DNA from: a virus
Length of the DNA stretch: 43,750 nucleotides
IMG/VR virus record: IMGVR_UViG_3300044691_000847
Location: 1 to 43,750 of that record
Direction: 5' to 3' (one strand)
In this document: one piece after another, positions 5,185 through 41,981 of the stretch
How the letters are laid out: each line of letters opens with the position of its first letter
How positions within the stretch are numbered: position 1 is the first letter of the stretch
Position numbers and translations under genes: made by a program
The notes under the pieces: model-generated
Databases searched by the model: none
Told to the model about the DNA's origin: nothing
Seen by the model: the letters and a program-made list of their open reading frames with translations, nothing else

Positions 5185-5285
5185 GCGGCGTATTCTATCA
5201 CAGCGAAAAGCCACAAGCCCGTTTATCCCCAACCGTTCCTGTAACCGTTCCCCTGCCCCTACATGAAGAATTGAGGTGTAAAATA

Positions 5286-6167
5286 ATGTGGGCGCTCTTT
5301 GTTTACGGCGGGCGGCCCGCAAGCAGCGCTGTCAACGATGCGGCCTCTACTTGCCTCGTCGCTCGCCAATATATGAACGCATTAATCGTCGGCGCCAATA
5401 AAACCCCCATCCTCGACCACGTGGAATCGTCTCCTTTTTTACTGATAGACGACGGCCCTTTGATTGATGCACTGGTCATTCCTCCACGAAGGAAGGTCGT
5501 CCACTTCGATGTTAAAAAGCACCACCTCAACCCATTGCATGAAATGGATTACAGGCGGGCGCGGGAGTTCATTTCAATACTCGACGCGATTTTCCCAGAG
5601 GGCGACAGCACGCTAACGAAGAAGAACGCGAATTTCGTATTGCTTAATGCCCTACTCGACAAGCCTACCTATCTTGACAAGCTGCTGCGGGGCGACAAGC
5701 GTGACCCTGCGAAACAGGATGCCTACCAGAAGATAGAGACCATCCTGCTCTCGCCTGTGCTGCGTTCGGTGCTGTGCGAGCCGACCAACTTTTCAATGAA
5801 AGGAATTGTGCTGGCGCGGCTCGACCGTGCGGTGCTCGGTGACTTCGATGCGTTCGTTCTCGCCAACCTGCTCATCTCGCAATTCGAGGGCCAGGTGATA
5901 ATCCCCGACTTCGGCTTCTACGGCCGTGAGCACCACATCTCGCTTATCAGGCAGGACAGGCTCGTTGCCGGCGTCAGCACGCTCTCTCAGCTGCCGCTGC
6001 GCCTCCAGCAAGCCCTCCTGACCGTGCCGGAGAAGATCGCGTCACGGACAACGTCTGAGGATGCGGAGATCTTGGCGAAGTATCGTGGTTTCGTGCCGCA
6101 CACAAATGAGTTTAACGATTTCATACTGGGTGCGATTTCTGCAAGTGGGGACACTCACCGAGCCTGA
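5286..6167 (+). CDS. Degenerate TraG/HerA-like ATPase (catalytically dead)
   Basis: A 293-residue protein whose order of segments matches the active VirD4/TraG-like ATPase at 36828-38549. ALIVGANKTPIL replaces the P-loop (GPSGSGKTT there), LLIDDGPL matches VIIDPKGL, VHFDVKKHHLNPL matches IIIDPTFSPPPALN, and KGIVLARLDRAVLGDFDAFV matches KSIVLVNTGMNTLGSDASQL. VIIPDFGFY stands where the Walker B strand LIIDEFQEF is. The GKT lysine context and the DE pair are both lost, so it should not hydrolyse ATP. It may be a regulatory or structural subunit of the other ATPase, or a substrate adaptor. The ATG at 5286 has GAGG about ten bases upstream. The homology is my alignment by eye. Confidence 0.6.
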   Translation: MWALFVYGGRPASSAVNDAASTCLVARQYMNALIVGANKTPILDHVESSPFLLIDDGPLIDALVIPPRRKVVHFDVKKHHLNPLHEMDYRRAREFISILDAIFPEGDSTLTKKNANFVLLNALLDKPTYLDKLLRGDKRDPAKQDAYQKIETILLSPVLRSVLCEPTNFSMKGIVLARLDRAVLGDFDAFVLANLLISQFEGQVIIPDFGFYGREHHISLIRQDRLVAGVSTLSQLPLRLQQALLTVPEKIASRTTSEDAEILAKYRGFVPHTNEFNDFILGAISASGDTHRA

Positions 6168-7234: not shown

Positions 7235-7613
7235 GATCCTTTTCGCTTGAACGTACAGCCGCGCTTGGGAGAACGGCTGCACACTCAAACGCCCAAGCTA
7301 GTAATGACTCATTGTCTCATGCCCCGTCCCGCTGTCTACTCCCGCTCCCTGCGGAATCGTGGGCTGGTAAAAGGACACGGCTATCGGACGCGCCTCATGG
7401 ACGGCGGGGAATAACGGACGCGCCTTGGCGTGTTCGTTATCGACACGATGTACATGAGGCGTGATCTTCAGGCATCGACGTCTGTCCAGGCTCGATGAGC
7501 AGAGGCGCCCGATAGGGAGCCTCCGAGCACTTTGTACACATGGTACAGGTATCAGGAACATCGTAGCACGGTTCACGTGTAACGCTTGGCGGGGCTGTCA
7601 GGAGGAGCACTGT
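7235..7613. ncRNA. Hairpin-rich non-coding stretch
   Basis: No gene is supported for this part of a 780-base gap. It holds an 11-base direct repeat (CGGACGCGCCT at 7385-7395 and 7415-7425) and a chain of hairpins on the plus strand: CGTGT/ACACG at 7429-7447, CATCGA/TCGATG around 7473-7497, GAGGC-CCC/GGG-GCCTC at 7502-7523 with a GATA loop, and TGTAC/GTACA around 7534-7548. TGGCGG near 7587 can also pair with CCGCCA at 7614, competing with the big hairpin. This may be the 5' part of one large structured RNA. The strand is inferred from the flanking plus-strand gene. Confidence 0.35.
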
Positions 7614-7809
7614 CCGCCACGGTGGCGTCGGTGGTCTGCGTATGCAGCCACGACCTGATTAGGTTTGCGTCCTCGCCCCCGAGCTTTAGCGAAGAGGGGC
7701 GATGGGTATGGGGCAGTCCAGCCGGTAGGCGGTGTGCGGAGCGCAGGAAAGGACCATAGAGTCAAACGTAATCAGGTCGTGGCTGGATAGCCCGACGGCA
7801 CCGTGGCGG
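7614..7809 (+). ncRNA. 196-nt interrupted long hairpin, candidate large structured RNA
   Basis: Arms 7614-7631 and 7792-7809 pair at 17 of 18 positions. After an asymmetric internal loop (13 and 6 bases), arms 7645-7667 and 7763-7785 pair at 22 of 23. The apex (7668-7762) contains TCGCCCC/GGGGCGA (7673-7679 with 7696-7702) and TATGG/CCATA (7707-7711 with 7754-7758). No coding frame is convincing. It lies 210 bases before a plus-strand gene. It could be a structured RNA, a replication or transfer origin that extrudes as a cruciform, or a miniature transposable element; no target-site duplication is visible. Confidence 0.6.
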
Positions 7810-8018
7810 AAATGTAGGAATTGCAGGCATTGTCAGCGTAGACACAGTTGTAGGTACAGTGAGTAGGACTGTGGGGTGGGGTGTAGGTAGGCACTGTGAA
7901 GGTGAAATGTGCGCGAGCGGCCGAAGCCGAAGGCCGAGACCGTAGGGCTCGGTTCACGAGGACGCGGTCCCCGAAGTGGGGCGCGCCGGCAGCGGACCGA
8001 ATCGGATAAAGTAAAAGG
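7810..8018. other. Non-coding leader upstream of membrane protein gene
   Basis: No gene is supported. Smaller pairings are present: CACAGT with ACTGTG around 7842-7872, CGGCC with GGCCG near 7917-7936, and CGGTCC with GGACCG around 7965-7999 enclosing CCCC/GGGG. These may continue the structured region to the left and form the leader of the 8019 gene. A minus-strand frame here encodes a Thr/Pro/Cys-rich stretch that I do not accept as a gene. Confidence 0.35.
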
Positions 8019-11722: not shown

Positions 11723-13207
11723 TTATGTTTGTTTAGCGGTCACGGTGCATGTGACTGTCGTAGGTGAAGATGCGGGTGTACCGGCTTTGACGCCAACAAC
11801 GTTCGGCGAAACGGGTGTGTTGTTCGACGTAAAGTTGGTTGTACCGACGGTTGTGGACGCGGGAATCATGGGGAGGACGAGAGTTGGCCCGCTGCCGTAT
11901 TGGTACTGGATATTGAGTGTGCCGGCATCGGTTGCACATTGTGCCGCAGAGAACGTGAAGCCAATCGGCGCGATACCGAGCTGAAGCAGTGTCGTCGTTC
12001 CTGTCCAGGCGGTCGTAGTGGCGTAGGTGAAGGTGAGATAGCGTTTCCCGGTAACCGTATCTCCTCCCACGGAAAACGCGGTTGAGGAGGCATTCGGAAT
12101 TGTGGTGAATTGGCTTGCGTTGAGAGTAAGGATCGTCCAAGCGGTTCCCGTCGAAGAAGTGGCGATGCCATAGACACCTGTCGTACCGTTCGAGACCAAA
12201 ACGTTGCTCGAAGCAGGTTGCGAGGTGGTTGCGAGTCCGAGCCATGTGATCGCGCCGCCGCCAGTCAAGACGGCGTGTGCGGCACACAGAAGGGGCGCGG
12301 TGCAGGTTTCAGACGATGTTGCAACGCCATAGACACCGCTTGTTCCATTCGAGACGAGCAGGTTACTGGAAGAGAGTGAGGTCGTAGTAGCGAGACCGCT
12401 CCACGTTATTGCTCCACCACCAATAAGAACTCCATGTGCTGCACAAACGAGCGGAGCTGTACACGTCTCCGAAGATGTCGCTACACCGTAGACGCCACTC
12501 GTGCCATTCGACACAAGAATATTGCTCGAAGACGGCTGAGATGTGGTTGCAAGGCCAAGCCAGCTAATAGCGCCGCCGCCGACGAGCACTCCATGAGCTG
12601 CACAAAGTAGCGGAGCGGTGCAGGTTTCCGAAGAAGTAGCGACCCCATAAATTCCATTGGTGCCGTTTGACACGAGGATATTGCTTGATGACGGTTGGGA
12701 AGTCGTTGCAAGACCGCCCCATGAGAGCGTGCCGGTCGTGGTGAAGGTACCGCCAAGAATAGGCCAGGTCGAAGCAACGGAAGTAACCGTTCCGCTTCCC
12801 TTACTGTTGAAGGTTGTCCAATCGGTGGATGACAGGCAGCCGGTAGCGGAGCCGGTAGCGGTCGTGCATCCGATGGTGAGTCCGGTGCCGATGATGCTTT
12901 GGCCTGCCGTTACAGTGACGCCGCCAGAGCCGCTCACGGTGCTTGTTGCGACTGATCCGAGCGTTGATGGCGTGCCGTTGCCTGTCCAGTAGGCGAGACG
13001 GCCGACGGTTGGGACAGAGGAAGTCCCTATTGGTCCGGCCGTTATGAGCCCTGTGTTGAGGTTGGTTAGGGATGTGTTGACGTTCGTTCTGAACGTCCCG
13101 ATTGTGTCATTGCTGTTGGTGAGGAGGACGGTCGCGGCGTTGACGAGGGTGATAGAGATGGCGAAGGCGACGACGCCGAGGATAATGCTAGGCCAGAAAT
13201 ATTTCAT
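11723..13207 (-). CDS. Secreted repeat protein (tail fibre or surface adhesin)
   Basis: A 494-residue protein. A hydrophobic N-terminus (FWPSIILGVVAFAISITLVNA) acts as a signal or membrane anchor. Residues 100-145 contain GCLSSTDWTTFNSKGSGTVT, a phrase common in phage and Bacteroidetes-type fibre proteins. Then come three and a half copies of a 53-residue unit that begins GLATTSQPSSSNILVSNG and includes two cysteines. The C-terminal 130 residues are beta-rich and Thr-rich. Fibre or adhesin function is inferred from repeats and composition. Confidence 0.65.
   Translation of the reverse strand: MKYFWPSIILGVVAFAISITLVNAATVLLTNSNDTIGTFRTNVNTSLTNLNTGLITAGPIGTSSVPTVGRLAYWTGNGTPSTLGSVATSTVSGSGGVTVTAGQSIIGTGLTIGCTTATGSATGCLSSTDWTTFNSKGSGTVTSVASTWPILGGTFTTTGTLSWGGLATTSQPSSSNILVSNGTNGIYGVATSSETCTAPLLCAAHGVLVGGGAISWLGLATTSQPSSSNILVSNGTSGVYGVATSSETCTAPLVCAAHGVLIGGGAITWSGLATTTSLSSSNLLVSNGTSGVYGVATSSETCTAPLLCAAHAVLTGGGAITWLGLATTSQPASSNVLVSNGTTGVYGIATSSTGTAWTILTLNASQFTTIPNASSTAFSVGGDTVTGKRYLTFTYATTTAWTGTTTLLQLGIAPIGFTFSAAQCATDAGTLNIQYQYGSGPTLVLPMIPASTTVGTTNFTSNNTPVSPNVVGVKAGTPASSPTTVTCTVTAKQT
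12161..12722 (-). repeat. 159-bp tandem coding repeats (3.5 copies)
   Basis: Inside the 11723-13207 gene, a 159-bp unit is repeated about 3.5 times, encoding GLATTSQPSSSNILVSNGTn and the following Cys-containing segment. Copies differ mostly at synonymous and conservative positions, for example SQPSSSN, TSLSSSN and SQPASSN. The count could change by recombination between units. Confidence 0.8.
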
Positions 13208-23320: not shown

Positions 23321-24550
23321 TTATACCCAGTCCGAAGTTCCTGCGTTGATCTTGACGCGCACCATCTGGCGAGCGCCGTCCGCGTAGGTCTTCTTACCGA
23401 AACCGAGGAGCGATTTGACGTTGTCTGCGAACTGTTTGTTGTCGCGGATAACTTCGATCTTCGGCGGGATCTGCACGATGATGTCGATGCTGCCTTGAAC
23501 GAGAAACAGCGAGTCCTGGCGCTGAGCGCTCCAGACGTTGGCTGCTGCGGTCATGGACTGCGAAACGACGATGTCGCCGTAGCCCGAGAGAGTAATCTTG
23601 GTGCTCACGTCGTCAACCGCCGAGATGCGGCGTTTGTCGCGGAGCAAGAAGATGTTTTCTGCACTGAGGGCCACGAAGCCGGCGTCAGTTGCCGAAGTAA
23701 CCGACGTGTCTACCGCGTTCAAAGCTGCTGCGAACGTAGCGCGTGTGTGCGCGGCGTCCGAACAGATGTGAACGTTTCCTGCGGTCGTACCGAGGGTCGT
23801 CTTGAACGTGAAGACAACGCCCGCGATGGTGACGGTGTCGCCGTCGGTCGGGTTGGTCGTGAGCGTAAAGACAGCCGAGTACGGCAGGTTGTTGCTGTAC
23901 ATGATGTCCCAGCCGAACAGAGGAGCGCCGACGAAGCCGCGGGCATTCACTGCGTCCGCGAGCGGAGAGCCGGGGCGTCCTGCTTGCTGGAGCTTCAATT
24001 GGCCGAGGAAGTGACCGCCGACTACGGCGATGCGTCCTGCCTTCGGCGCGTCGATAGCGTCGAGCTTGGTGTCGGCAGCAACGAAGAACTGCGGCACGGT
24101 GTTCGTGTTGACAGTCGCGTTGTTGCCTGCGGTGCCGCCGACATTTCCATCGTCGAGCGTCCAGGATGAGTTGGTAACTTCCGCGAGAACGGCCTGTTCG
24201 ATGCGGTTGTTGTGGTCGTGCATCATCTTGTTCGAGATGTTGGTCCCGAGTTCGATGATGGATTGGGCGCGTTCCGTGTCGTCGATGACGACGCGGGATG
24301 CGAGCCACGTAGCGATAGAGAGAGATTCGTTAGAACCCGTGACGGCGACGGAAGTGATGTCCGAACCCGGCGTGTACGTAGACGACGAGGGGTAGGAAAC
24401 GATCACCCGTTTCACCGTGTCGCCCTCTCCGGCGACAAGATTCCTCAGGGTCGTGTTGGCGATAGCGATCGCTTTGTTCTCGACGAACAACGAACGCTGC
24501 GCTTCACGCGCCCAAAAGGTCGGGTTAAGAGATGATAATGAGTTTGCGAT
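23321..24550 (-). CDS. Major capsid protein
   Basis: The protein has an N-terminus typical of a phage coat protein family (NPTFWAREAQRSLFVENKAI), central TNISNKMMHDHNNRIEQAVL, and a C-terminal domain with APLFGWDIMYSNNLPYSA. An inserted Ig-like or beta segment lies near residues 220-260. The conserved N-terminal part has no ATG, GTG or TTG in front of it. The best-placed codon is ATC at 24550, giving MANSLSSLNPTFW if read as Met. TTG at 24490 is the first standard start but would cut off part of the conserved region. It follows the scaffold-like gene. Confidence 0.75.
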   Translation of the reverse strand: MANSLSSLNPTFWAREAQRSLFVENKAIAIANTTLRNLVAGEGDTVKRVIVSYPSSSTYTPGSDITSVAVTGSNESLSIATWLASRVVIDDTERAQSIIELGTNISNKMMHDHNNRIEQAVLAEVTNSSWTLDDGNVGGTAGNNATVNTNTVPQFFVAADTKLDAIDAPKAGRIAVVGGHFLGQLKLQQAGRPGSPLADAVNARGFVGAPLFGWDIMYSNNLPYSAVFTLTTNPTDGDTVTIAGVVFTFKTTLGTTAGNVHICSDAAHTRATFAAALNAVDTSVTSATDAGFVALSAENIFLLRDKRRISAVDDVSTKITLSGYGDIVVSQSMTAAANVWSAQRQDSLFLVQGSIDIIVQIPPKIEVIRDNKQFADNVKSLLGFGKKTYADGARQMVRVKINAGTSDWV

Positions 24551-26358: not shown

Positions 26359-26492
26359 AATCCAGTGTCGGCTACCTTCTCCTCTCTCCGTTTCTCTCTG
26401 TCATGTTTCCGTTTGGCCTTTTCGCGTTCCTCGGGGTCACTCAGCGTCTTGAACATACGCAGCCAGTCTTCCGTCGATTCGGTGGTGTTCAT
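26355..26492 (-). CDS. Very small charged late protein
   Basis: A 45-residue protein (MNTTESTEDWLRMFKTLSDP..., then very basic KAKRKHDREKRREEK). Its start overlaps the portal stop as ATGA and its stop overlaps the next ATG in the same way. That double coupling, filling the gap exactly, makes it convincing despite its size. Function unknown. Confidence 0.6.
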   Translation of the reverse strand: MNTTESTEDWLRMFKTLSDPEEREKAKRKHDREKRREEKVADTGL

Positions 26493-28345
26493 TGTGCTTT
26501 AGCGAGTTGCCGTGTCGCGCGGTGGACGACGTGAGCGGGATTAGGCTTCGGTGTCGGTTGAGGTGGCGGTTGTTCGCCTGGCTGTCCCTGACCTTGCTCT
26601 TGTCCGTCCTGCGGCATCATTTGCTGCGGCGGCATCTTTGGAAGGGAAGCAACGTCTATTCCCTTCTTCGCCATTGCCATCTCGATCATGGCACTGCGGC
26701 GGACGGGGTCTTGTTCAAGGCCGATGAAGGTGGAGAATGTTTGCAGGTCTTGCGGGAGCGTAGAGTTCTCTCCCGTGATGTCGATGGAAACGCTCGGCAA
26801 GAAGTCGTCAAAAATGTCTCTGATGCCCTTCATGAGAAGGTGCGGACGCTTCTGTAGCTCTTCGAGCTTTTGTTGCTTTAGCATTTGCGCGATCTCAGGT
26901 CCGTGCGGACCAATTGCGAGCAAATTATCGAGATACCAGTCCTCAACGATCATGTTGTTGAGCCGGTCCATGATCGAGGCATCGCCCACAAGCCGGATGA
27001 TGTCCTTCGCTTTCAGGTCTTTTACCTGTTCGGGTACGATCCACTCCTCGAATATCTCGGTGAACGGGATCGCAAGCTTCTGGCGGATGTAATCGAAAAG
27101 CTTGTTGGAGTTCTGATTGAGAAGTGCGGCGACTTGGAATGGCATACGTTGCGGCAGTCCCTCGCCTGTGACGATCGGTGAAGAATTGGCAAGGTCGTTC
27201 ATGTGCTGCTGTACCTGATTCCACTCTTCGACAAGCTGGCTGAAGCCGTGGAATATCATGTCAACCTGTTTGAGGTCTTTGGCTTTGATGATGTCACCGC
27301 TCGTGAGGTCGCCATTGACGTTCTGGATGATGAGCCTGTCATCTGAGGCCAAGACGATTTTAGATGCGTACTCAAGTCCGCGTGCTATCTGGTTGCCGAT
27401 CTGATTGAGGCGTACTTGGTCGTCGAAGAGCAGTTCGTACATTCCCTCGCGCCACCATGTTCCTCTGTAGCGGGAGCGGTGAAATTCCTTGTAGATATCT
27501 TCGTTGGTCTTGCCCTTCATCTCCTCGGCGAAGACGATGAACTCGATTTTTACACCAGCAGCCGTGCCTTCCGTGCCGGCTGCGATGATTTTGGCGAATG
27601 TGTATTTTTCTTCGTCACCGTCGGCGGGGGTCTCGCCCTTCACCTCTTTCAAGTCTTTGACGCACACCTCGCCGTTGCGTTCGTAGATATCGTAGTAGGG
27701 AACGGTCGTATCCTTGGCGACGGATGAAATCTCTGTTTTGAATGTATCGCTCTTGCACTGTTCCAAAACCTCCTTGACGTTATCCCACTTCCCCGTTCGT
27801 TCACGTAGATCGGACTGGGAGAATTGATGCCGCTCGATAACGGGCGTTTCGCACAACTCCCGTGCGGTCTGGTTGATGACATAGAAGTTCTTGAGGTCAA
27901 CCCGCTCGTAGGTCTTCTTAACTTTCTTCCAAACGATGTTTCCCCAGCCGGAGCCTTCCTCGATGGCGGAGTTAATCTCATCCGCCTGCCCTGTCTCGCG
28001 TAAGTATTCCTTGAGTTTGAGGTTTGAGATGAGTACCGGGAGGTCGTCCTTCTGCGGCGCGGTTTGCCGATCGGAATAAATCTTGATGTCCTTCGTGTCG
28101 AAGTCGATGTTCTTCACTTCGTTGACGATGCGAGAATAGATGCCGTCGTACCAGAACTTGTAATTGCCCTGGCTGTCGAACTTGCCTGTTGGGTAGGTGT
28201 GTGTCTCGAAGAGCGAGATGCGGCGCACGAGTTTGTGCTGCGAGTAGTCGTAGGTCTGGCCGACATTCACCACCTCTGTGTGGTACTGGCGTATCTCTTT
28301 TTCTATTTGCGTCTTGAGACCTGAGGCGGTGTTGTCGATTGACAT
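26489..28345 (-). CDS. Phage portal protein
   Basis: A 618-residue protein. RISLFETHTYPTGKFDSQGN and FWYDGIYSRIVNEVKNIDFD lie near the N-terminus. The centre has the portal-like clip and stem region (LLFDDQVRLNQIGNQIARGL, LANSSPIVTGEGLPQRMPFQ, NSNKLFDYIRQKLAIPFTEI). The C-terminus is Pro/Gln-rich (QDGQEQGQGQPGEQPPPQPT) and disordered. Twelve copies would form the vertex channel for DNA. Size and position right after the large terminase support the call. Confidence 0.8.
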   Translation of the reverse strand: MSIDNTASGLKTQIEKEIRQYHTEVVNVGQTYDYSQHKLVRRISLFETHTYPTGKFDSQGNYKFWYDGIYSRIVNEVKNIDFDTKDIKIYSDRQTAPQKDDLPVLISNLKLKEYLRETGQADEINSAIEEGSGWGNIVWKKVKKTYERVDLKNFYVINQTARELCETPVIERHQFSQSDLRERTGKWDNVKEVLEQCKSDTFKTEISSVAKDTTVPYYDIYERNGEVCVKDLKEVKGETPADGDEEKYTFAKIIAAGTEGTAAGVKIEFIVFAEEMKGKTNEDIYKEFHRSRYRGTWWREGMYELLFDDQVRLNQIGNQIARGLEYASKIVLASDDRLIIQNVNGDLTSGDIIKAKDLKQVDMIFHGFSQLVEEWNQVQQHMNDLANSSPIVTGEGLPQRMPFQVAALLNQNSNKLFDYIRQKLAIPFTEIFEEWIVPEQVKDLKAKDIIRLVGDASIMDRLNNMIVEDWYLDNLLAIGPHGPEIAQMLKQQKLEELQKRPHLLMKGIRDIFDDFLPSVSIDITGENSTLPQDLQTFSTFIGLEQDPVRRSAMIEMAMAKKGIDVASLPKMPPQQMMPQDGQEQGQGQPGEQPPPQPTPKPNPAHVVHRATRQLAKAQ

Positions 28346-28521: not shown

Positions 28522-29844
28522 TCATAGGCCGGTGTCACTGCGTACAGCCGAGGAGTTGTCCCGGCGCGCCAGTCTGAGTTGAAGTTCCTTGCGCGCATCA
28601 GCCTCAGGGTCGGCATCCGCCTTGACCATTTCAGTCAGGAAATATCTTGCTGCCGACATGAGGTGATTGGGACAATTTGGATCCTCAGTACCAAGGTGGG
28701 TGTCCTCCTCGACGGCATCCTTGTTTCGCTTCCACGCATAGTTCTCATATTCATATTTCAGATTCTTGCCTGTTGCGGTGTACGAGATAGGAAGCGCCTG
28801 CACATGCTTGATGCCGAAATTGATGCTGTCCTTCCCCTTCTCGCATGGGATGATGTGAACGCCGAGCACCTTCAGCTCCTCAATGCTTTTTGGCTCCGCG
28901 CTGTCTGCGACGATAGTAGAGGTTGGAAGAAGCTTGATGTTAGTTGCAAGGGCATCGTTCGTGAGACGGGTGGCGTAAAGCTTCTCATCAAGGATATAGC
29001 CGCCATTGTGGTAAAACACATCGACAAGAGCGGCCGGGTCCGGGTCAAAACCGAAGTCGAGGCCGCGCCCGAGCAGACGCGCTTCATGCGGAACGGCTGG
29101 AATCTCGCGCCAGCCTGAATAAATACGCCCCATGACGACCTCGGGGCAGAGGCCGCGTATCATCTGCCAGTAGTACGCTCGCTTCGTAGCTTGATAGCCT
29201 TCATAGCGCTCGTGAACGGCGTCGGCCAGGTATGGGTTGTCGGCATGGGTCGAGAAGATGAACTCGACATCCTTCGCGGCTTCGGGCTTTAGTTCGATGC
29301 GATAAAACCCGTTCGCTTCGCTCGGGGTGACATTGAACCACCGTTTGATGATCCAGTGGCTTTTAGGCGGCGTGTTCAACGAGAGATGTATTTGAGAGCC
29401 TTCGGCGCGCAACGAGTCGTCGAGCTGGCGAAATTCGTCCTCGCCGATTTCCTCGGCCTCTTCGATAAATGCATCGGTGTAGTTCGCAAGTGATTTGAGT
29501 TTAGCCGTTCGGTCGGAAGAAGATTTCTTGAATCCATGTGCATGCACGCTGTTATGAGCATGCTCCATTTCCATCGTGCTGTCTGCAATACGGAGCGTCG
29601 GTCCTATCTCCCAATCCCGCACGCGGTCGGTAAGTTCTTGCCATATCGAATGGCGGATGTCGGTATGGACGGCGCGCATGATAGCGGCTCTGAACGGCCG
29701 CTTATTCTGCACGAGTTTGGCCGTGACCTTCTGCGATGTTTCGTAGGAGCGGCCAGCTCCACGTCCGCCCATGACGATGATGTAGCGCTTTTGTGATTCC
29801 CAGAGCGGGCGATAAATACTGTTCGCTTCGATCTTCACTTTCAT
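28522..29844 (-). CDS. terL: Terminase large subunit (PBSX/Terminase_3 type)
   Basis: A 440-residue protein. The ATPase part has GGRGAGRSYETSQK in the Walker A position near residue 26 and DAFIEEAEEI as Walker B, with LSLNTPPKSHWIIKR after it. The nuclease part has GLDFGFDPDPAALVDV and STIVADSAEPKSIEEL, carrying the acidic metal ligands. The usual lysine of the P-loop is an arginine here. The start overlaps the small-subunit-like stop as ATGA. It packages DNA into procapsids through the portal. Confidence 0.9.
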   Translation of the reverse strand: MKVKIEANSIYRPLWESQKRYIIVMGGRGAGRSYETSQKVTAKLVQNKRPFRAAIMRAVHTDIRHSIWQELTDRVRDWEIGPTLRIADSTMEMEHAHNSVHAHGFKKSSSDRTAKLKSLANYTDAFIEEAEEIGEDEFRQLDDSLRAEGSQIHLSLNTPPKSHWIIKRWFNVTPSEANGFYRIELKPEAAKDVEFIFSTHADNPYLADAVHERYEGYQATKRAYYWQMIRGLCPEVVMGRIYSGWREIPAVPHEARLLGRGLDFGFDPDPAALVDVFYHNGGYILDEKLYATRLTNDALATNIKLLPTSTIVADSAEPKSIEELKVLGVHIIPCEKGKDSINFGIKHVQALPISYTATGKNLKYEYENYAWKRNKDAVEEDTHLGTEDPNCPNHLMSAARYFLTEMVKADADPEADARKELQLRLARRDNSSAVRSDTGL

Positions 29845-33868: not shown

Positions 33869-34663
33869 TCAGAACAGCTCAACCGTCTCAACCTTCATCT
33901 CGTCGCACAGCGCGGCAAGCATTTCCAAGGATTGAGGCGTGATAGGCGCTAGGAACGCCACGACGTTCTCCACGCCCTGTTCGGAGGCGGTGAGGACCTG
34001 AAGCGGGTCGCGGACAAGGTACAACTCCCCTGCCCCTACGCGGTCACAGCCAAAGATAACCGAGTGAGGGTCGAAGCCGTTCGGGAACAGCAGCTTGGGC
34101 GATTGTTCGTCCGTGACTGCGATGCCGACGTAAGCGAGTAGCGTGCCGTCCTTGCTATGGATTGGCACTGCGAACCTGCCTCGTAGGATGCCTTTTGGAG
34201 CGTATCCCGCTCCCCATGTAAGAGCCGTTTCAGGCGAAACACCGAGTGCCTGAACGGACTCATGCGCTGCCTCCAGATAGGTCAGCGGTTGAAGCTCGCG
34301 CTTCTCCTGCTGCTTTGCTGGCGGGCTGGGGGCTGGTTTGGAAGCGGCCGGCGCGGGCTTTGTGTCTCCTCCTCCAAACTGTTGCTCGATGTACAACGCC
34401 GCTTCACGCTGCGTCATGCCTCGGATGTGAGCGACGAGACTGATAACGTCGCCTCCCTTGCCCTGCGCGAAGCAGTAATAGGAGCCGCCGTTCTTCTGCG
34501 TGTTGATGGCGAGCGCCCTGTCACCGCCTTGGCGGCAAGTCGGGCAAGCGCCGCGGTACTGCGCGCCATTCTGTTTGAGCGTGAGGTTGAGCACTGGAAT
34601 CAATTGCTCGATACGCACCCGCTCTTTCAAACGGGCAAAATCCACATATGCGGCCTCGGTCAT
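33869..34663 (-). CDS. Reduced CHC2-type DNA primase
   Basis: A 264-residue protein. VDFARLKERVRIEQLIPVLN opens like DnaG, then GACPTCRQGGDRALAI and YYCFAQGKGGDVISLVAHIR give the CHC2 zinc finger. The ligands vary from the usual pattern: CPTC for CPxH, and the last Cys of CFGC is absent. A Pro/Ala/Lys linker follows, then a Toprim-like half (KDGTLLAYVGIAVTDEQSPK, GELYLVRDPLQVLTASEQGV) without its usual Glu. There is no helicase domain. It may prime phage or element replication, or be a regulatory remnant. AAAGGAG lies before the ATG. Confidence 0.8.
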   Translation of the reverse strand: MTEAAYVDFARLKERVRIEQLIPVLNLTLKQNGAQYRGACPTCRQGGDRALAINTQKNGGSYYCFAQGKGGDVISLVAHIRGMTQREAALYIEQQFGGGDTKPAPAASKPAPSPPAKQQEKRELQPLTYLEAAHESVQALGVSPETALTWGAGYAPKGILRGRFAVPIHSKDGTLLAYVGIAVTDEQSPKLLFPNGFDPHSVIFGCDRVGAGELYLVRDPLQVLTASEQGVENVVAFLAPITPQSLEMLAALCDEMKVETVELF

Positions 34664-34699: not shown

Positions 34700-34708
34700 A
34701 TTGTACCG
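34700..34708 (-). promoter_or_regulatory. Promoter motif upstream of primase gene
   Basis: GCGGTACAAT on the minus strand, a one-base variant of the element's extended -10 motif, 36 bases before the primase ATG. A small AGCGG/CCGCT hairpin follows it in the leader. Confidence 0.45.
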
Positions 34709-34710
34709 CA

Positions 34711-34719
34711 TGGTAAGAT
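34711..34719 (+). promoter_or_regulatory. Promoter motif upstream of structured leader
   Basis: TGGTAAGAT on the plus strand fits the extended -10 form TGnTAnnAT. It ends 11 bases before the first base of the long stem at 34731 and is nearly back to back with the primase promoter motif. Confidence 0.4.
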
Positions 34720-34730
34720 GAAGCCAGGAC

Positions 34731-34866
34731 ATCGAACGTGGATGGGGGGATGTGAAAGGTCTTAATCAGTCGCGGGAAAATTCTAAGCCCACACTTCACC
34801 GCGATTGAGTGTGGTTCACGGGTGAAAGTCCCATCAAATCCTACCTTCCCCCACCCGCGTTCGATT
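34731..34866 (+). ncRNA. Structured RNA or riboswitch-like leader, 20-bp closing stem
   Basis: 34731-34750 pairs with 34846-34865 over 20 positions (17 Watson-Crick, 2 G-U, 1 mismatch). Inside, CCACACT (34789-34795) pairs with AGTGTGG (34808-34814) around a 12-base loop, and TTCA-CGGG-TGAA forms a hairpin at 34815-34826. The loop of the first hairpin contains TTCACC, which can instead pair with GGTGAA (34821-34826). A promoter motif precedes it and an 84-residue gene follows 35 bases later. It is long and well folded for a leader; regulatory RNA or independent small RNA are both possible. Confidence 0.6.
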
Positions 34867-35695: not shown

Positions 35696-35729
35696 ACCGC
35701 CGCCGCAGCAGTCGGCGGTTTTGCTTTTT
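35696..35729 (+). terminator. Rho-independent terminator
   Basis: ACCGCCG and CGGCGGT form a 7-bp stem with a 10-base loop, followed by TTTGCTTTTT. It ends the 35440 transcript and abuts the stop of the convergent replication-relaxation gene. Confidence 0.8.
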
Positions 35730-36717
35730 ACTTAGCGCCCAACTCCGCAAGAATATCAAGCGGCGGATGCCCTACCCGCTGCCACGGCTCGGTCAGCATA
35801 AAGCCCGTAGGCTTCGGGAAATAGTCAATGGATGCGAACTCGCGGACGTATTTGAAGGCGATATGCGCCGAGCCTTTCCCGCCTGTGCGGTCCTCCAGAA
35901 TATTCATCATCTCCCGCATTTCGTGCTCGCTGATAGCGACGAAGAGCGTCACGGCGTTCGGGATGCCGAGCTGGCGCTGATAGGTGCGTTGCCTGTGCAG
36001 CTCAAGTGCCGCCAGTATCTTTTCATTGATGGTCTGCCGCACGGTCTTTTCCGGGTTGCGCGTCTCTGTCCCGCGATCGACTTCGATGCCGGCGACGAAC
36101 AGCCGCTTGGTCTTATCTGCCTGCGTGTAGGCGATAGCGAACGGCTTGCTGTCGTGCACTGTATCGCGGTCTACCTCCACAAGCCTGTTGAGGCGCGGCG
36201 TGTGGTAGCTGAACTGCGTAGGAAAATGGAAAGGGGTTGTTGAACGTTTCGTCTCGGGCGGGCAGGACGGATGCGCAAGTATGTCACGATAGGTGACGAG
36301 CGAAAGCCCAGCTGTCTCCTTCACTCCGAGAGCAAAGGATGCGTCCACGATGCAGCGCGCCGACTTGTGTTTGATATGGTCGTTGCCGCGCGGTGTAGGC
36401 CGGTACATGCCCGCGTTGGTCAATGCCTGCTCGCCTTTCGAGGAAAGCGCATATAGAGCATGGCGATAGCGGGCGTTCGGCGTGTCCCATGAGCCGGGCG
36501 GGCACTCAATCACTCCCGCCTTGTGCCGCAGGATGGAGAGGCGCGCGAGCGTGTATTCCACAGGCAAGTCTAGGATGACGGGAATGTAGTTGCTCGGCAG
36601 GCACTCGTAGTCCTGCAAGAGGTCGAGAATACGCAGGTCGGTTTGACTGATACGGAAAACGCCGCCCTTCGCGGTGTTGTCGAACCGGGAAACTCGTTTG
36701 GCAGTTTTGGTCGGCAT
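35728..36717 (-). CDS. Replication-relaxation family winged-helix protein
   Basis: A 329-residue protein. The N-terminal winged helix reads FRISQTDLRILDLLQDYECL, LARLSILRHKAGVIECPPGS and RYRHALYALSSKGEQALTNA, as in the replication-relaxation family (Pfam PF13814) known from conjugative and plasmid elements. The rest is a mixed domain with FVAGIEVDRGTETRNPEKTV, whose E-x-D-R-G-T-E resembles a nuclease-like core. It lies 110 bases downstream of the TraG-like ATPase gene on the same strand. Probable role: DNA processing or regulation of replication with that ATPase. Confidence 0.75.
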   Translation of the reverse strand: MPTKTAKRVSRFDNTAKGGVFRISQTDLRILDLLQDYECLPSNYIPVILDLPVEYTLARLSILRHKAGVIECPPGSWDTPNARYRHALYALSSKGEQALTNAGMYRPTPRGNDHIKHKSARCIVDASFALGVKETAGLSLVTYRDILAHPSCPPETKRSTTPFHFPTQFSYHTPRLNRLVEVDRDTVHDSKPFAIAYTQADKTKRLFVAGIEVDRGTETRNPEKTVRQTINEKILAALELHRQRTYQRQLGIPNAVTLFVAISEHEMREMMNILEDRTGGKGSAHIAFKYVREFASIDYFPKPTGFMLTEPWQRVGHPPLDILAELGAK

Positions 36718-36827: not shown

Positions 36828-38549
36828 CTACCACTTTGTTGAGACGATAGAGCCGTCATCCTCGGGGGGCGTTGGCGGTGCTGCCTTTCGCTTTGGTGCG
36901 GGTTCGGATGGAAGGGGCGCAGGCAGCGGTTGGAACGCTGCTGGTAGCGGCTTTGAGGGCAACTCTTGAAGCGATAATCGCTTGGCGTTCGCCCGCAGCA
37001 TCCTTTCCAGCGCTTCCCTGTTCATGTGCGGTTGGCGGTCAATTTCTCCGAACGGCGCGGAGTGTACGAACGGATGCTGCGTGAATCCTCGGACAAAGCA
37101 GGCGAAGCGGGCTTCTGTCGATGTCTTGCTCTGCGCCGTGAGGAATGACGGTTCGCAGCGGAGATCCCGCGCGACATATGAGAGGTCTACACCCTCGGGG
37201 CTTGAGGCGTACTTGATGCTGGTATTGGTCGATACGGCCGAACGTATCTTCTCGGTCATTCCTGAGCCGTGCATCTCCTGATGTGCGAGCGTGACGGCCA
37301 GATTGTACTCTCGCGCGAGCCGCAACAGCTCGGGGGTCTTTTCCTCGTCAGCGAACTCCTGAAACTCGTCGATGATGAGATGAACCTGATGCCATTCATT
37401 CTGGGGAAGCGTGAAACGAGCATAGGCGGCGTTGAGTGTAAGGGAAATTATGTAACGCCCAAGAAGCTGCGAGGCATCCGAGCCAAGCGTATTCATGCCG
37501 GTGTTAACCAGGACGATTGATTTGTTCTGCAAGCAGTCGAGCATATCGAGCTTGCGTTCCCTCGCCTCGAACATGCGGACAAATTCTGGGTGCTGCAACA
37601 CGCCATAGATGCGGGCCTTTATCTGTTGGCGCGTCTCCTTGTAGTTTGAGCTGAAGAACTCGTTTCGGAAGAAGCGCTCAGAAGTGGTGTCGAGTCTCCC
37701 GATGAAGGGCGCGAAGCGGCATTGAGAATACGGCTGCCCTTTCGGGTCGTCGGTGCGCGTCGGGTCGTCCATCAGGTCAATGAGCGTGTGGATATTCGAT
37801 TCCATCCCGAACATGAGTCGTACTGCGAAGCCAAATGGTGTCGCCTGTTTGTCCGTGAGTTTGGAGCCGGTACTTGAGAAAATAAAAGCGAACGTGCTTA
37901 TCGCTTGGTTCTCAACGCGCCGCCGCTGCTCTACTGACCAGATTTGGTTCCACCGCGAGGCTGCGTGGAACATGTTGAGCGCGGGCGGCGGGCTGAAAGT
38001 CGGGTCGATGATGATGAGCCGGTCTTTGAGGCGGCCGTTATCGGGGTTGAACACGTCAAGCGATTGGAGCCGTTTTACCATCAAGCCCTTCGGGTCGATG
38101 ATGACCATGCCGGGCGGGCCTTCTTTAGCCAGGTCGGCAAGGATGAGCTGCTGTAGGAGCGTCGTTTTGCCCGAGCCGCTTGGACCGAGGATGTGCGTGT
38201 GCTCGGAACGGAATTTGTCGGGGATGGGTCGCGGCACAAGCAGTTCTTGAAATGCCCTTTCTTCCTCTTCTCGTGCTCGGTTCGCCTCGGCAAGCTTGTT
38301 GGCCTCCTGCTGAGAGCGGTATGCGACTTCAGCAAACCATTTGGAGCGATAGGCCGCGAGGTGTCTATGAATCACGCCTTGCAGCTCAGGGTGCTGCAGG
38401 TCGGCGGGTATTAACTCGGGCAACGTGCGTTTGAGTGCTTTGTATTTGCATTCTTCTGAGCAGAAGGCGAACGGGTCGGCAGGTTCGATTCGGACTCGTG
38501 ACTGGAAGAGTTGGCTGCATTCAACACATCGGTCAGTATCAAATTTCAT
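36828..38549 (-). CDS. VirD4/TraG-like coupling ATPase with N-terminal zinc ribbon
   Basis: A 573-residue protein. Residues 8-35 form a zinc ribbon (CVECSQLF...FCSEECKY). The ATPase has Walker A HILGPSGSGKTTLLQQLILA near residue 120, MVIIDPKGLMVKRLQSLD, and Walker B VHLIIDEFQEFADEEKT. AREYNLAVTLAHQEMHGSG is the Gln-containing sensor strand of TraG/HerA proteins. The C-terminal 60 residues are Pro-rich. No N-terminal membrane helices are seen, unlike classical VirD4. It should pump or deliver DNA, or act in element replication. It is coupled by ATGA to the zinc-ribbon gene and has a dead relative at 5286-6167. Confidence 0.85.
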   Translation of the reverse strand: MKFDTDRCVECSQLFQSRVRIEPADPFAFCSEECKYKALKRTLPELIPADLQHPELQGVIHRHLAAYRSKWFAEVAYRSQQEANKLAEANRAREEEERAFQELLVPRPIPDKFRSEHTHILGPSGSGKTTLLQQLILADLAKEGPPGMVIIDPKGLMVKRLQSLDVFNPDNGRLKDRLIIIDPTFSPPPALNMFHAASRWNQIWSVEQRRRVENQAISTFAFIFSSTGSKLTDKQATPFGFAVRLMFGMESNIHTLIDLMDDPTRTDDPKGQPYSQCRFAPFIGRLDTTSERFFRNEFFSSNYKETRQQIKARIYGVLQHPEFVRMFEARERKLDMLDCLQNKSIVLVNTGMNTLGSDASQLLGRYIISLTLNAAYARFTLPQNEWHQVHLIIDEFQEFADEEKTPELLRLAREYNLAVTLAHQEMHGSGMTEKIRSAVSTNTSIKYASSPEGVDLSYVARDLRCEPSFLTAQSKTSTEARFACFVRGFTQHPFVHSAPFGEIDRQPHMNREALERMLRANAKRLSLQELPSKPLPAAFQPLPAPLPSEPAPKRKAAPPTPPEDDGSIVSTKW

Positions 38550-39295
38550 CGGCGCTTTAGGGCTTCAATGCGTTGCCGTTCTGCTTCGACTTCCGTTTCC
38601 ATTTTTTCGGTAAACTTCGCTGTTTCCCTCCGCAGCACGAAGTCTCGTTGCGCTTCCCAATTCCTAGTGAATGTTGCAAGTGCATCGTGTTCGGCGTTTA
38701 TCCTGTCTTGATTAAACTTGCCTTCGGTCTCAATCAGTTTGTTTCTCAACGCATCTATAGCTTCGTGCCGCGATTTCCCGGTGGAGGCATATAACCCTTC
38801 TCTGACGTAATCTTCGTCGCTGACAGCGCACACTTCGTCCAAGCCCTCACTAAGTGCACTGTACTGATCATCTTCTTGGAGGGTTTGCTTTTCGAAATCC
38901 TTCGGTAGGTACGGGCGAATGGCTTTGGCACGGCAATCCTGGCTACAGAACTGAAATTGCGCAGACGATGTTCCCGGAATCGCCTGTCCGCAGTTAGCGC
39001 AACGGCCGACATCAAAATACATGCCGCCGCTGCTCTTGCCTGCGACCAAGGCCTGTTCGCTTGTTGAGAGATGCGTTGGCTCGGGAGGTGGGTGATAAGT
39101 GATGGTTGGCTTGGGGATGGCGACCTCACCAAGGCATTTCTGTGAGCAGTACCGAACGTCCTTAAGGAAGGAATCTAGAAGGCGGTCAGGGTGCATCAGC
39201 ACTTCGCTGCCGAGCGCGTTGCCGCATCGAGCACAATGGGTATTCGTCCAATCCGCAAGTTTTTGCTCAGGAGACTTCGTATTGAACGGCCACAT
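38546..39295 (-). CDS. Double zinc-ribbon coiled-coil protein
   Basis: A 249-residue protein with two ribbons of the same kind as the N-terminus of the ATPase: CARCGNALG...YCSQKC and CANCGQAIP...FCSQDC. The second half is a long charged helix ending VEAERQRIEALKRR. I start at MWPFNTKSPE (39295). ATGA overlap with the ATPase gene argues that the two are made together and may form one complex through like ribbons. Confidence 0.75.
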   Translation of the reverse strand: MWPFNTKSPEQKLADWTNTHCARCGNALGSEVLMHPDRLLDSFLKDVRYCSQKCLGEVAIPKPTITYHPPPEPTHLSTSEQALVAGKSSGGMYFDVGRCANCGQAIPGTSSAQFQFCSQDCRAKAIRPYLPKDFEKQTLQEDDQYSALSEGLDEVCAVSDEDYVREGLYASTGKSRHEAIDALRNKLIETEGKFNQDRINAEHDALATFTRNWEAQRDFVLRRETAKFTEKMETEVEAERQRIEALKRR

Positions 39296-39447: not shown

Positions 39448-39930
39448 ATGGATGAAATTTGGAAGGACATCGAAGGCTGGGAGGGATTTTATCAGGTAAG
39501 CAATTTTGCCCGCGTTAAATCTCTCGCGCGGGGGCGATGCGAGCACTGCGGAGCAAGAAGCAAACGCGGTGGTTTTCTCTCGCAATACACAAGCAAGCAA
39601 GGCAAGGGATACAAAGTCGTTAGGTTCTCGCGACCGAGCGGCAAAATCTACCGGTCAATGTTTCCCGTCCACCGTCTTGTCGCAATAGCGTTCGTACCGA
39701 ATCCGCTAAATCTGCCGCAGGTCAATCATATCGATGGTAACAAGTTCAATAATGAACCAAGCAATTTGGAGTGGGTGACGTGCAAGCAAAACATCCATCA
39801 CGCTTGGCGGCTCGGTTTAAGTAAACCGCCTCCATCGCAACTGAAGCATGGGCGGTACGTCGGCATGCATAAGGCCGGAGGATATGTTCCAGTGAAGGAA
39901 CGCAATAAGGGGCTAGGGTTGGACGCCTAG
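39448..39930 (+). CDS. NUMOD4-HNH homing endonuclease
   Basis: A 160-residue protein. EIWKDIEGWEGFYQVSNFAR is the NUMOD4 signature; a CEHCG pair follows. The HNH domain is FPVHRLVAIAFVPNPLNLPQ, then VNHIDGNKFNNEPSNLEWVT and CKQNIHHAWRLGL. This is the common free-standing homing endonuclease of phages. It is the only plus-strand gene between the ATPase operon and the integrase. GAGG precedes the ATG. The leader is highly structured. Confidence 0.9.
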   Translation: MDEIWKDIEGWEGFYQVSNFARVKSLARGRCEHCGARSKRGGFLSQYTSKQGKGYKVVRFSRPSGKIYRSMFPVHRLVAIAFVPNPLNLPQVNHIDGNKFNNEPSNLEWVTCKQNIHHAWRLGLSKPPPSQLKHGRYVGMHKAGGYVPVKERNKGLGLDA

Positions 39931-39941
39931 CCCCTTCCCCT

Positions 39942-40145
39942 TTACGGGGATTGCCTAGAGTCTCGTTTGGCTATCGCTGCCTTCATCCACTCTTCAACTT
40001 CGGACTCAAGGTATCCGACGCGAGCGTAGCGGCCGTCCCCTAGCTTGATCCGCTTTGGAAAAGTGCCAGCCTCTTCGAGTCGGGCGCGATGAGCGTCACT
40101 GTAAAGCGTTAGGGCTTTGACTTCCTTTTTCGAGAGAAATTTCAT
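39942..40145 (-). CDS. AlpA/excisionase-like DNA-binding protein
   Basis: A 67-residue protein of the AlpA/MerR-like winged-helix form: FLSKKEVKALTLYSDAHRAR, then GTFPKRIKLGDGRYARVGYL and ESEVEEWMKAAIAKRDSR. Such proteins regulate integrase or act directly as excisionases. It lies beside the integrase gene. GGAG lies seven bases before the ATG and inside an inverted repeat. Confidence 0.85.
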   Translation of the reverse strand: MKFLSKKEVKALTLYSDAHRARLEEAGTFPKRIKLGDGRYARVGYLESEVEEWMKAAIAKRDSRQSP

Positions 40146-40302: not shown

Positions 40303-41412
40303 CTATGCGGGCATCAGTCCGCGTAGGTGAGCCTCGTAGCGCTCCACGGCCACACGCATCTGAGGAAGGTAAGAATACCTGTCGTATATGGCCTCCACGT
40401 CGGTCTGAACGCCGGCCGCATGGTTGATAAGTCGCTCCGCTATTTCGCGCGGGGTCCCTATCTCTCCGTGGGTGCTGCGGTAGGTCCGCCTTAGGTCATG
40501 GAGCGTCCAGCCTGAGACGCCATCCGCCAGCTCCTTCTTGAACTTGCTCCATCCCGAGAGAGGCCGTTCGTCGGACACCTTCGAGGGAAAGAGCAGGTCA
40601 GTCGAATTGCGGCGGGGTATCGTTCCGAGTATTTCCGCGACCATCCCGTTATACGGGAACGTATGGTCCCGCTTGTTCTTGGTCACGCCGTCCTCCCCGC
40701 CGGGAAGGGTTATCGTTTGCGCTTTCAGGTCTATCCACGGCCAGCGAAGGTTGGCGATCTCGCCACGCCGCTGTCCGGTGAGGATAAGCAGCCGCACGAT
40801 AACGCCGTGCGGATAGCTTTGCCTTCCCGCTGCCGTCCAGACGGTCTTTAGCTCCTCCGGCTTCAAGATGCGCTTGCGCTTCTTCGCCACCTTCACCTCT
40901 ATGCCCTCTAGGGGCGAGTGGGGGATGTAGCGACGAGGCGGCTTGACGCACCAGCGCAGGAAGGTCCTACAGACGACCAGGGCGTGCGCTGCTTCGCTTG
41001 GGGCCGCGCCCGCGATGCAAGCCACCACCAGCTCGTAGGTAAGCTCCCGCAGGCGCTTCTTGCCGAGCCGGGGGATGAAGTACTTGCCGAGGAACCGCTT
41101 GTATTCCGTCCGGGTCTTCGGCTTCTTGGCAGCGAGAGTAGCTTCGTACTCCTGATAGGCTTCGGCCAAGGTCAGCCCGCCGCGCGGGGCCGGTTCTTCG
41201 ACCAGGCGCTTCTTCGCTTCCTTGCGGGCCTCCGCAAGGCTCATGCTTGGGTAGCGGCCGATAGCGATACGCTGCCGGTCGGTCCCTCTCGTGATGACCC
41301 ACGTCTTACGGTTCTTGCCGACGCGGACGCCGAACGCGGGAGTGGTTTCGTCGTAGTAGATTCCGGGTGTGGTGAGACGCTGCACCACAATTTCTGTGAG
41401 GTGCGTGCGCAT
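40303..41412 (-). CDS. int: Tyrosine-family site-specific integrase
   Basis: A 369-residue protein. The N-terminal arm-binding part has AFGVRVGKNRKTWVITRG. The core-binding domain follows (TLAEAYQEYEATLAAKKPKT). Catalytic residues appear in LTGQRRGEIANLRW (Arg), DGVTKNKRDHTFPY (Lys), LHDLRRTYRS (His and Arg), LINHAAGVQ (His) and AIYDRYSYLPQ (Tyr). I start at ATG 41412 with GGAG seven bases upstream. A longer reading would begin WVGSNHRPPVPQ, which is the antisense of the tRNA fragment and not protein. It recombines the element into the tRNA-His gene. Confidence 0.92.
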   Translation of the reverse strand: MRTHLTEIVVQRLTTPGIYYDETTPAFGVRVGKNRKTWVITRGTDRQRIAIGRYPSMSLAEARKEAKKRLVEEPAPRGGLTLAEAYQEYEATLAAKKPKTRTEYKRFLGKYFIPRLGKKRLRELTYELVVACIAGAAPSEAAHALVVCRTFLRWCVKPPRRYIPHSPLEGIEVKVAKKRKRILKPEELKTVWTAAGRQSYPHGVIVRLLILTGQRRGEIANLRWPWIDLKAQTITLPGGEDGVTKNKRDHTFPYNGMVAEILGTIPRRNSTDLLFPSKVSDERPLSGWSKFKKELADGVSGWTLHDLRRTYRSTHGEIGTPREIAERLINHAAGVQTDVEAIYDRYSYLPQMRVAVERYEAHLRGLMPA

Positions 41413-41517
41413 TTTTGTCTCCTTTTTGTCTCTCAAAGAGCGTGTGTAGAGGTGAGTTTCCAGGAGACAGTATACACCGCTCAATAGGGAAAAACTTTTC
41501 AAATACAGAGACTTACG

Positions 41518-41532
41518 GTGACTATGCGTCAC
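41518..41532. repeat. Short dyad next to attachment site
   Basis: GTGAC and GTCAC around TATGC, between the integrase start and the tRNA fragment. A likely arm or accessory-protein site for integration. Confidence 0.35.
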
Positions 41533-41545
41533 TATGAGGAAGTCA

Positions 41546-41598
41546 AATCCTGTCTGTGGAACAGGAGGTCGGTGGTTCGAGCCCACCCAACTGTACCA
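41546..41598 (+). other. Right attachment site: 3' part of a tRNA-His gene
   Basis: CCTGT (41549-41553) and ACAGG (41561-41565) form the anticodon stem with a 7-base loop carrying GTG (41556-41558), the His anticodon. GGTGG-TTCGAGC-CCACC (41571-41587) is the T-arm. CAACTGT, discriminator A and CCA follow to 41598. No matching 5' acceptor strand (ACAGTTG) or D-arm lies to the left; that side is element DNA. So this is the 3' fragment left at the far end of an element integrated in a tRNA-His gene. The intact tRNA should lie at the other end, outside the window. Confidence 0.8.
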
Positions 41599-41981
41599 GC
41601 AACTCAACGGCTTAGCTTGAACTCACCGGCATTCGAATTTTCATAGGTACTTTTTAGGTTCGAGACACGTGGGCGGAAGCCCTCGGTCCATAGAACGCGC
41701 TGTATGGCTCGGCTTCCTCGAACAGGAAACGGTCTCGAATCGACTGTCCCTGTGCATTCAGCAATTGAGCGGCAATGTCCGGCAACTCGTTCCGAGCGCG
41801 GGCATAGTCCCTCCGCGCTCACCAATGAAATCAGGCATAACTCGACTACCGGCCCGATCCGCTCTGTGATTTGGCAATGCTCTTGGCAATGTGTCGCTAG
41901 ATTTGAGCGATCATCATAAAATAGCCCGCCTATGGGCCGGGATGATGGCTTGCTCGCCGAATATGCGTGGCGGAGGCGGGC
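41599..41981. other. Host flank with no supported gene
   Basis: High-GC chromosomal sequence right of the attachment site. I see no convincing gene. TTGGCAATG occurs twice 13 bases apart near 41871-41892. Frames across the stretch have no recognisable protein sequence. Confidence 0.4.

Follow-up and report, generated by a model that had tools for sequence, protein, structure and literature searches.

What is a conjugation-type coupling ATPase doing in the genome of a tailed phage, next to a protein of the replication-relaxation (Replic_Relax) family? The question is raised by a 43,750-base virus record, the whole of which was analysed and is referred to below as the window. Judged from its sequence, this phage appears to carry, between its integrase and packaging genes, a pair of the plasmid-transfer type, consisting of a putative DNA-nicking protein and a DNA-moving motor.

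Organization of the window

On the minus strand, the genes follow in the order integrase, AlpA-type regulator, double zinc-ribbon protein, ATPase, Replic_Relax protein, CHC2 primase-like protein, large terminase subunit (TerL), connector-like protein and major head protein. The genes that flank the zinc-ribbon, ATPase and Replic_Relax genes are listed below, together with the tRNA remnant that probably marks the right prophage end.

41549..41598 (+), tRNA 3′ half, probable att core of the right prophage end; anticodon GTG (His) by eye
40303..41607 (-), tyrosine integrase; likely start ATG at 41412
39942..40145 (-), AlpA-type excisionase/regulator
33869..34663 (-), CHC2 zinc-finger primase-like protein
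28522..29844 (-), TerL; Terminase_3, 6.9e-33
26489..28345 (-), portal/connector-like protein; phrog_332, 2.3e-4
23321..24490 (-), major head protein; phrog_267, 2e-14

With TerL, a head protein, a portal-like protein and an integrase in one record, the window represents a temperate tailed phage, and the terminase, portal and capsid genes that a first-pass annotation had read from the letters were all identified. No second copy of the tRNA half was found within the 43,750-base window, so the left end of the prophage lies beyond it or was missed. An Rfam search of the window returned no matches.

Several other features of the window were observed. A NUMOD4-HNH homing-endonuclease-like gene occupies 39448-39930, on the opposite strand in the interval between the excisionase and zinc-ribbon genes, and a partial ATP-dependent DNA ligase gene lies at the left end (1-633). 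A 159-nt unit is present in three tandem copies within a tail-region gene (12152-12721). In a region devoid of clear genes, a long inverted repeat (7613-7810), with arms of 19 and 34 nt that are 85-95% complementary, could form a hairpin of ~200 nt. A 43-bp non-coding block (34700-34742), almost identical in another record with the pair (L002) despite diverged flanking genes, is probably the primase promoter.

The pair is part of the phage and is exchanged between phages

A neighbourhood survey for co-occurrence with terL found the ATPase, Replic_Relax and terminase genes together in 10 virus records (the window and nine others) and on a single bacterial contig, the genes almost always sharing a strand; a CHC2 primase gene came next after the pair in 9 of these 11 records. 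The ten virus records were all drawn from a virus collection, a source biased to terminase-bearing contigs. The exception is a Hyphomicrobiales contig (L086), which was found by genome scan, is free of that bias, and has the pair 5 kb from TerL. Integrases and terminases differ among the records with the pair: L002 and L003 carry other integrases, and the TerL proteins of L002 and the window are only 46% identical, as compared with 82% for their ATPases. Both genes of the pair are under purifying selection (dN/dS 0.10-0.18 and 0.08-0.14). In L003, an apparent tRNA gene (Gln by eye) lies between the Replic_Relax and primase genes, at about 6005-6085.

The phage label required 5 changes on the ATPase tree, versus 10.2 in shuffles. 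The window ATPase falls in a well-supported clade of seven rows, six of them phage-borne, and a clear membrane helix is absent from all seven members. Of the relatives of the window TerL whose records extend 3.5-10 kb upstream, 26 lack the module there, which argues that it has been exchanged between phages; it is exchangeable and is not essential to the structural lineage of the window.

A phage lying in tandem with an integrated mobilisable element would also bring these genes together, and in Phaeobacter (L062/L088) the pair is indeed 14 kb from the terminase, with an integrase in between. Within the window, however, neither an att-like sequence nor a second tyrosine integrase was detected between the pair and the capsid module, the sole att-like sequence lying outside the integrase. 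The order integrase-ATPase-Replic_Relax-primase-TerL is repeated in other records despite their different integrases and terminases, and the Hyphomicrobiales contig has a similarly close arrangement. We consider a tandem origin very improbable. The ATPase and Replic_Relax genes are real and part of the phage, and the initial view that a tailed-phage genome has a coupling-type ATPase as an integral part is upheld.

A coupling-type motor with a zinc ribbon in place of the membrane anchor

The ATPase and the zinc-ribbon gene upstream of it comprise the following features.

38546..39295 (-), double zinc-ribbon protein; two CxxC...CxxxC ribbons, ATG start
36828..38549 (-), T4CP/TrwB-like ATPase, 573 aa; zinc ribbon, coiled coil and RecA-like motor
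38163..38186 (-), ATPase Walker A GPSGSGKT, residues 122-129; G125, G127 and K128 invariant
37365..37370 (-), ATPase Walker B acidic pair D394-E395; D invariant, E at least 90%

The ATPase, which had been described as TraG/VirD4-like, matches the Pfam model TrwB_AAD_bind (E=1.8e-9). Its structure model (mean pLDDT 83) has TrwB as best fold match, with a Z score of 26.6 over 346 residues, followed by VirB4 (26.0), DndH-C (24.2) and HerA (21); together with the Walker A and B motifs, this identifies a TrwB-type RecA-like motor. The N-terminal transmembrane domain of type IV coupling proteins is lacking, as a simple hydropathy scan revealed no membrane helix or hydrophobic segment, in line with the earlier reading. 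On its modelled structure, the window ATPase is a coupling-protein-type motor in which an N-terminal zinc ribbon replaces the membrane anchor. Zinc ribbons are also present in the ATPases of L002, L003 and L007, with a comparable cysteine pattern in L087, and membrane helices are present in the phage ATPases of L091, L092 and L098.

The two ribbons recognized earlier in the upstream protein were borne out, and a third sits at the N-terminus of the ATPase. The longest ORF of the zinc-ribbon gene begins at a TTG (39358), and the gene shares an ATGA overlap with the ATPase start. Its last ribbon and coiled coil resemble the ATPase N-terminus of a relative (E=3e-4); in many relatives a protein of ~120 aa is encoded at this position instead.

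The partner probably belongs to the MobC relaxase superfamily

The Replic_Relax gene falls just beyond the span on which the first-pass annotation centred (36828-39295).

35728..36717 (-), Replic_Relax/MobC-superfamily protein, 329 aa, putative relaxase or nickase; PF13814, 21.3 bits
36406..36654 (-), its winged-helix domain, residues 22-104; MarR-type matches
35848..36375 (-), its C-terminal domain, residues 115-290; secondary-structure order fits the PD-(D/E)XK fold

The presence of a replication-relaxation-type protein near the ATPase was confirmed, its score on PF13814 (21.3 bits) being below the cut-off of 25.3 and that of its relatives reaching 30-52 bits; NCBIfam holds no model for these proteins. 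The structure model (pLDDT 92) consists of a winged helix and an alpha/beta domain. MOBC relaxases are related to PD-(D/E)XK enzymes and have an N-terminal winged helix (PMC12857230), and the window protein likewise begins with one (residues 20-104; MarR-type, Z about 10.8 over 77 residues). H117, D189 and E212 of the C-terminal domain are invariant in 50 of 50 aligned sequences and are positioned as in PD-(D/E)XK enzymes. A Foldseek search with this domain gave no significant match, PaqCI and Shedu appearing only at E 0.3-0.6. Some cellular ATPases carry a fused C-terminal domain; a profile comparison shows no similarity between it and Replic_Relax.

MobC of the CloDF13 type is a relaxase by published experiments. 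Since mobB/mobC are broken in the CloDF13 reference record, the comparison used a related plasmid in which both are intact. Its MobC scores 78.7 bits on PF13814, the same Pfam model as the window protein; the partner of MobC, MobB, matches the ATPase profile (E=2e-6); and the order of the two plasmid genes is that of the ATPase and Replic_Relax genes. The MobC motifs H, PD and E-x-E land on conserved Replic_Relax columns, in an alignment that is weak (E=0.054). Because relaxase and window protein share a model, the motors are homologous and the order is common to both, the initial statement that no relaxase is visible was probably wrong. The window differs from CloDF13 in that the pair resides in a tailed-phage genome, a zinc ribbon takes the place of the membrane anchor in the ATPase, and a primase gene comes next.

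These family ties also bear on whether the pair might be a phage-borne defence or superinfection-exclusion system, built from a HerA-like motor and a nuclease. The ATPase matches the PADLOC model mad8 (E=1.2e-19) and resembles DndH and HerA-nuclease complexes, with which it shares the motor fold; the C-terminal domain of some cellular relatives is nuclease-like by eye; and the pair adjoins the integrase. PADLOC nevertheless matches the ATPase only, the Replic_Relax and zinc proteins matching no defence model, and no cognate partner genes of HerA/DndH-type systems, nor an effector beside the ATPase, were recognized. Given also the relationship to MobB/MobC and the many phages that keep the order beside primase and terminase, we consider a defence function improbable.

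Relatives in cells and in cultured phages

Replic_Relax is present in 41 of the 42 cellular genomes that have the ATPase, and VirB4 lies within 20 kb of it in one, Citromicrobium (L057), at about 7 kb from the Replic_Relax gene. TerL was found within 20 kb at 1 of 41 cellular loci, versus about 0.6 expected by chance, which indicates that in cellular genomes the pair has no association with phages. N-terminal membrane helices are present in most ATPases encoded at cellular loci with Replic_Relax.

Many loci hold a second, shorter coupling-type ATPase. The window encodes a possible counterpart:

5271..6167 (+), coupling-type-ATPase-like protein with a broken Walker A; hhalign E=2.9e-4, probability 40%, to the second ATPase family

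Seven of these phages have this protein, including the window, L101, L110, L112, L114 and L117, and it adjoins the ATPase in three; it could build mixed rings with the active ATPase. A separate group of islands, mostly alphaproteobacterial (L013-L049; for example L019, 9143-11995), contains two coupling-type ATPases and a protein of ~120-150 aa, the larger ATPase having a C-terminal domain that is PD-(D/E)XK-like by eye (about 24 loci).

Are the window prophage and its relatives mobilisable? On this reading, Replic_Relax would be a genuine relaxase of the MOBC type with an oriT as its target, and the ATPase would bring the excised phage to the secretion channel of a conjugative element already in the cell, in the way that MobC/MobB serve CloDF13. 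Both families and their order match CloDF13-type mobBC. PF13814 with VirD4 is listed as a streptococcal mobilisation module (PMC5357655), and class 8 of these integrative elements (IMEs; VirD4, PF13814 and serine integrase) is a similarly compact module of coupling ATPase, Replic_Relax and recombinase, differing from the window in its serine integrase and its lack of phage structural genes. The cellular distribution, with Replic_Relax nearly always present and VirB4 nearby only once, is that expected of mobilisable elements, and plasmid-type ArdC and DUF3768 genes are close by. The 10 phage records contain no VirB4, consistent with the earlier view that the window has no type IV secretion genes, and a helper could supply such a system. 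Against this, MobB, which also takes part in DNA relaxation, needs its anchor for mobilisation (PMC7431656) and the window ATPase has none; no oriT was found, the interval between the Replic_Relax and primase genes containing no oriT-like repeats or other origin candidate; and a comparable pair is found in phages that have been described as apparently having lost lysogeny. Mobilisation, the main alternative to the model below, is possible but rather unlikely, and we think it a little less likely still that temperate tailed phages double as mobilisable elements, nicking the excised prophage with their own MOBC-type relaxase and leaving both through a resident conjugation channel and in virions.

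A pair like this one, FtsK with Replic_Relax, is already known from the annotation of cultured Bacillus phages. Pony, Page, Finn and Novomoskovsk are tailed phages with a motor gene beside a Replic_Relax gene; they differ from the window in having an FtsK-class rather than a TrwB-class motor, a short partner of 206 aa and separate replication proteins. In Pony the FtsK/SpoIIIE gene overlaps the replication-relaxation gene. Relatives of the Pony Replic_Relax protein occur in 57 phage records, with a neighbouring FtsK-type gene annotated in most among the matches listed. For two Bacillus phages with such a pair, a loss of plasmid lysogeny has been proposed; both have their own helicase, primase and polymerase (PMC9658697).

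For the Pony FtsK protein, a role in DNA entry or packaging has been proposed (PMC3853050), and the fold of the window motor is also common to a viral packaging NTPase. The pair is not in the structural block, however; every phage has its own TerL; the ATPase lacks a membrane anchor; and such a role leaves the Replic_Relax partner unexplained. We regard it as quite improbable. Among the roles first offered for the ATPase (replication, chromosome pumping during ejection or a hybrid phage-conjugative lifestyle), pumping gained no support for a motor encoded outside the virion block and lacking an anchor, and replication, or intracellular DNA processing, fits best.

A proposed model of intracellular DNA processing

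We propose, with a probability of roughly 0.4, that the pair is a MobB/MobC-type DNA-processing module adopted by temperate phages, its most likely task being to nick phage DNA and move it within the cell. The winged helix of Replic_Relax would bind a site on the excised phage DNA that serves as an origin, and its acidic centre would nick that DNA. A ring of the soluble zinc-ribbon ATPase might then load on the opened DNA and move or unwind it, with the CHC2 primase aiding the copying of the displaced strand. The output would be rolling-circle or concatemeric DNA for the terminase, made inside the cell and with no need of a secretion channel.

Intracellular processing would account for a motor that lacks an anchor, the absence of a channel, the primase gene beside the pair and the lack of a DnaB-type helicase (DnaB_C) in the 10 records, where other helicases or that of the host could still act. 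It is favoured by the window ATPase clade, which has no clear membrane helix, whereas MobB requires its anchor to mobilise, and by the presence of a comparable pair in cultured Bacillus phages, of which two have apparently given up lysogeny according to their description. Against it stand the lack of an origin or oriT, the 26 terminase relatives without the module, the replication proteins that the Bacillus phages themselves encode, the helices in the ATPases of L091, L092 and L098, and a nuclease fold to which structure searches gave no significant match.

Taken together, these data place a relaxase-family protein and a coupling ATPase, normally taken as a signature of conjugation, in a conserved arrangement in tailed phages; in the closest relatives of the window, a zinc ribbon takes the place of the anchor. 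Either conjugation-type DNA processing serves phage replication, or some prophages are mobilisable. Surveys of mobilisable elements that rely on PF13814 or on coupling proteins will include phages.
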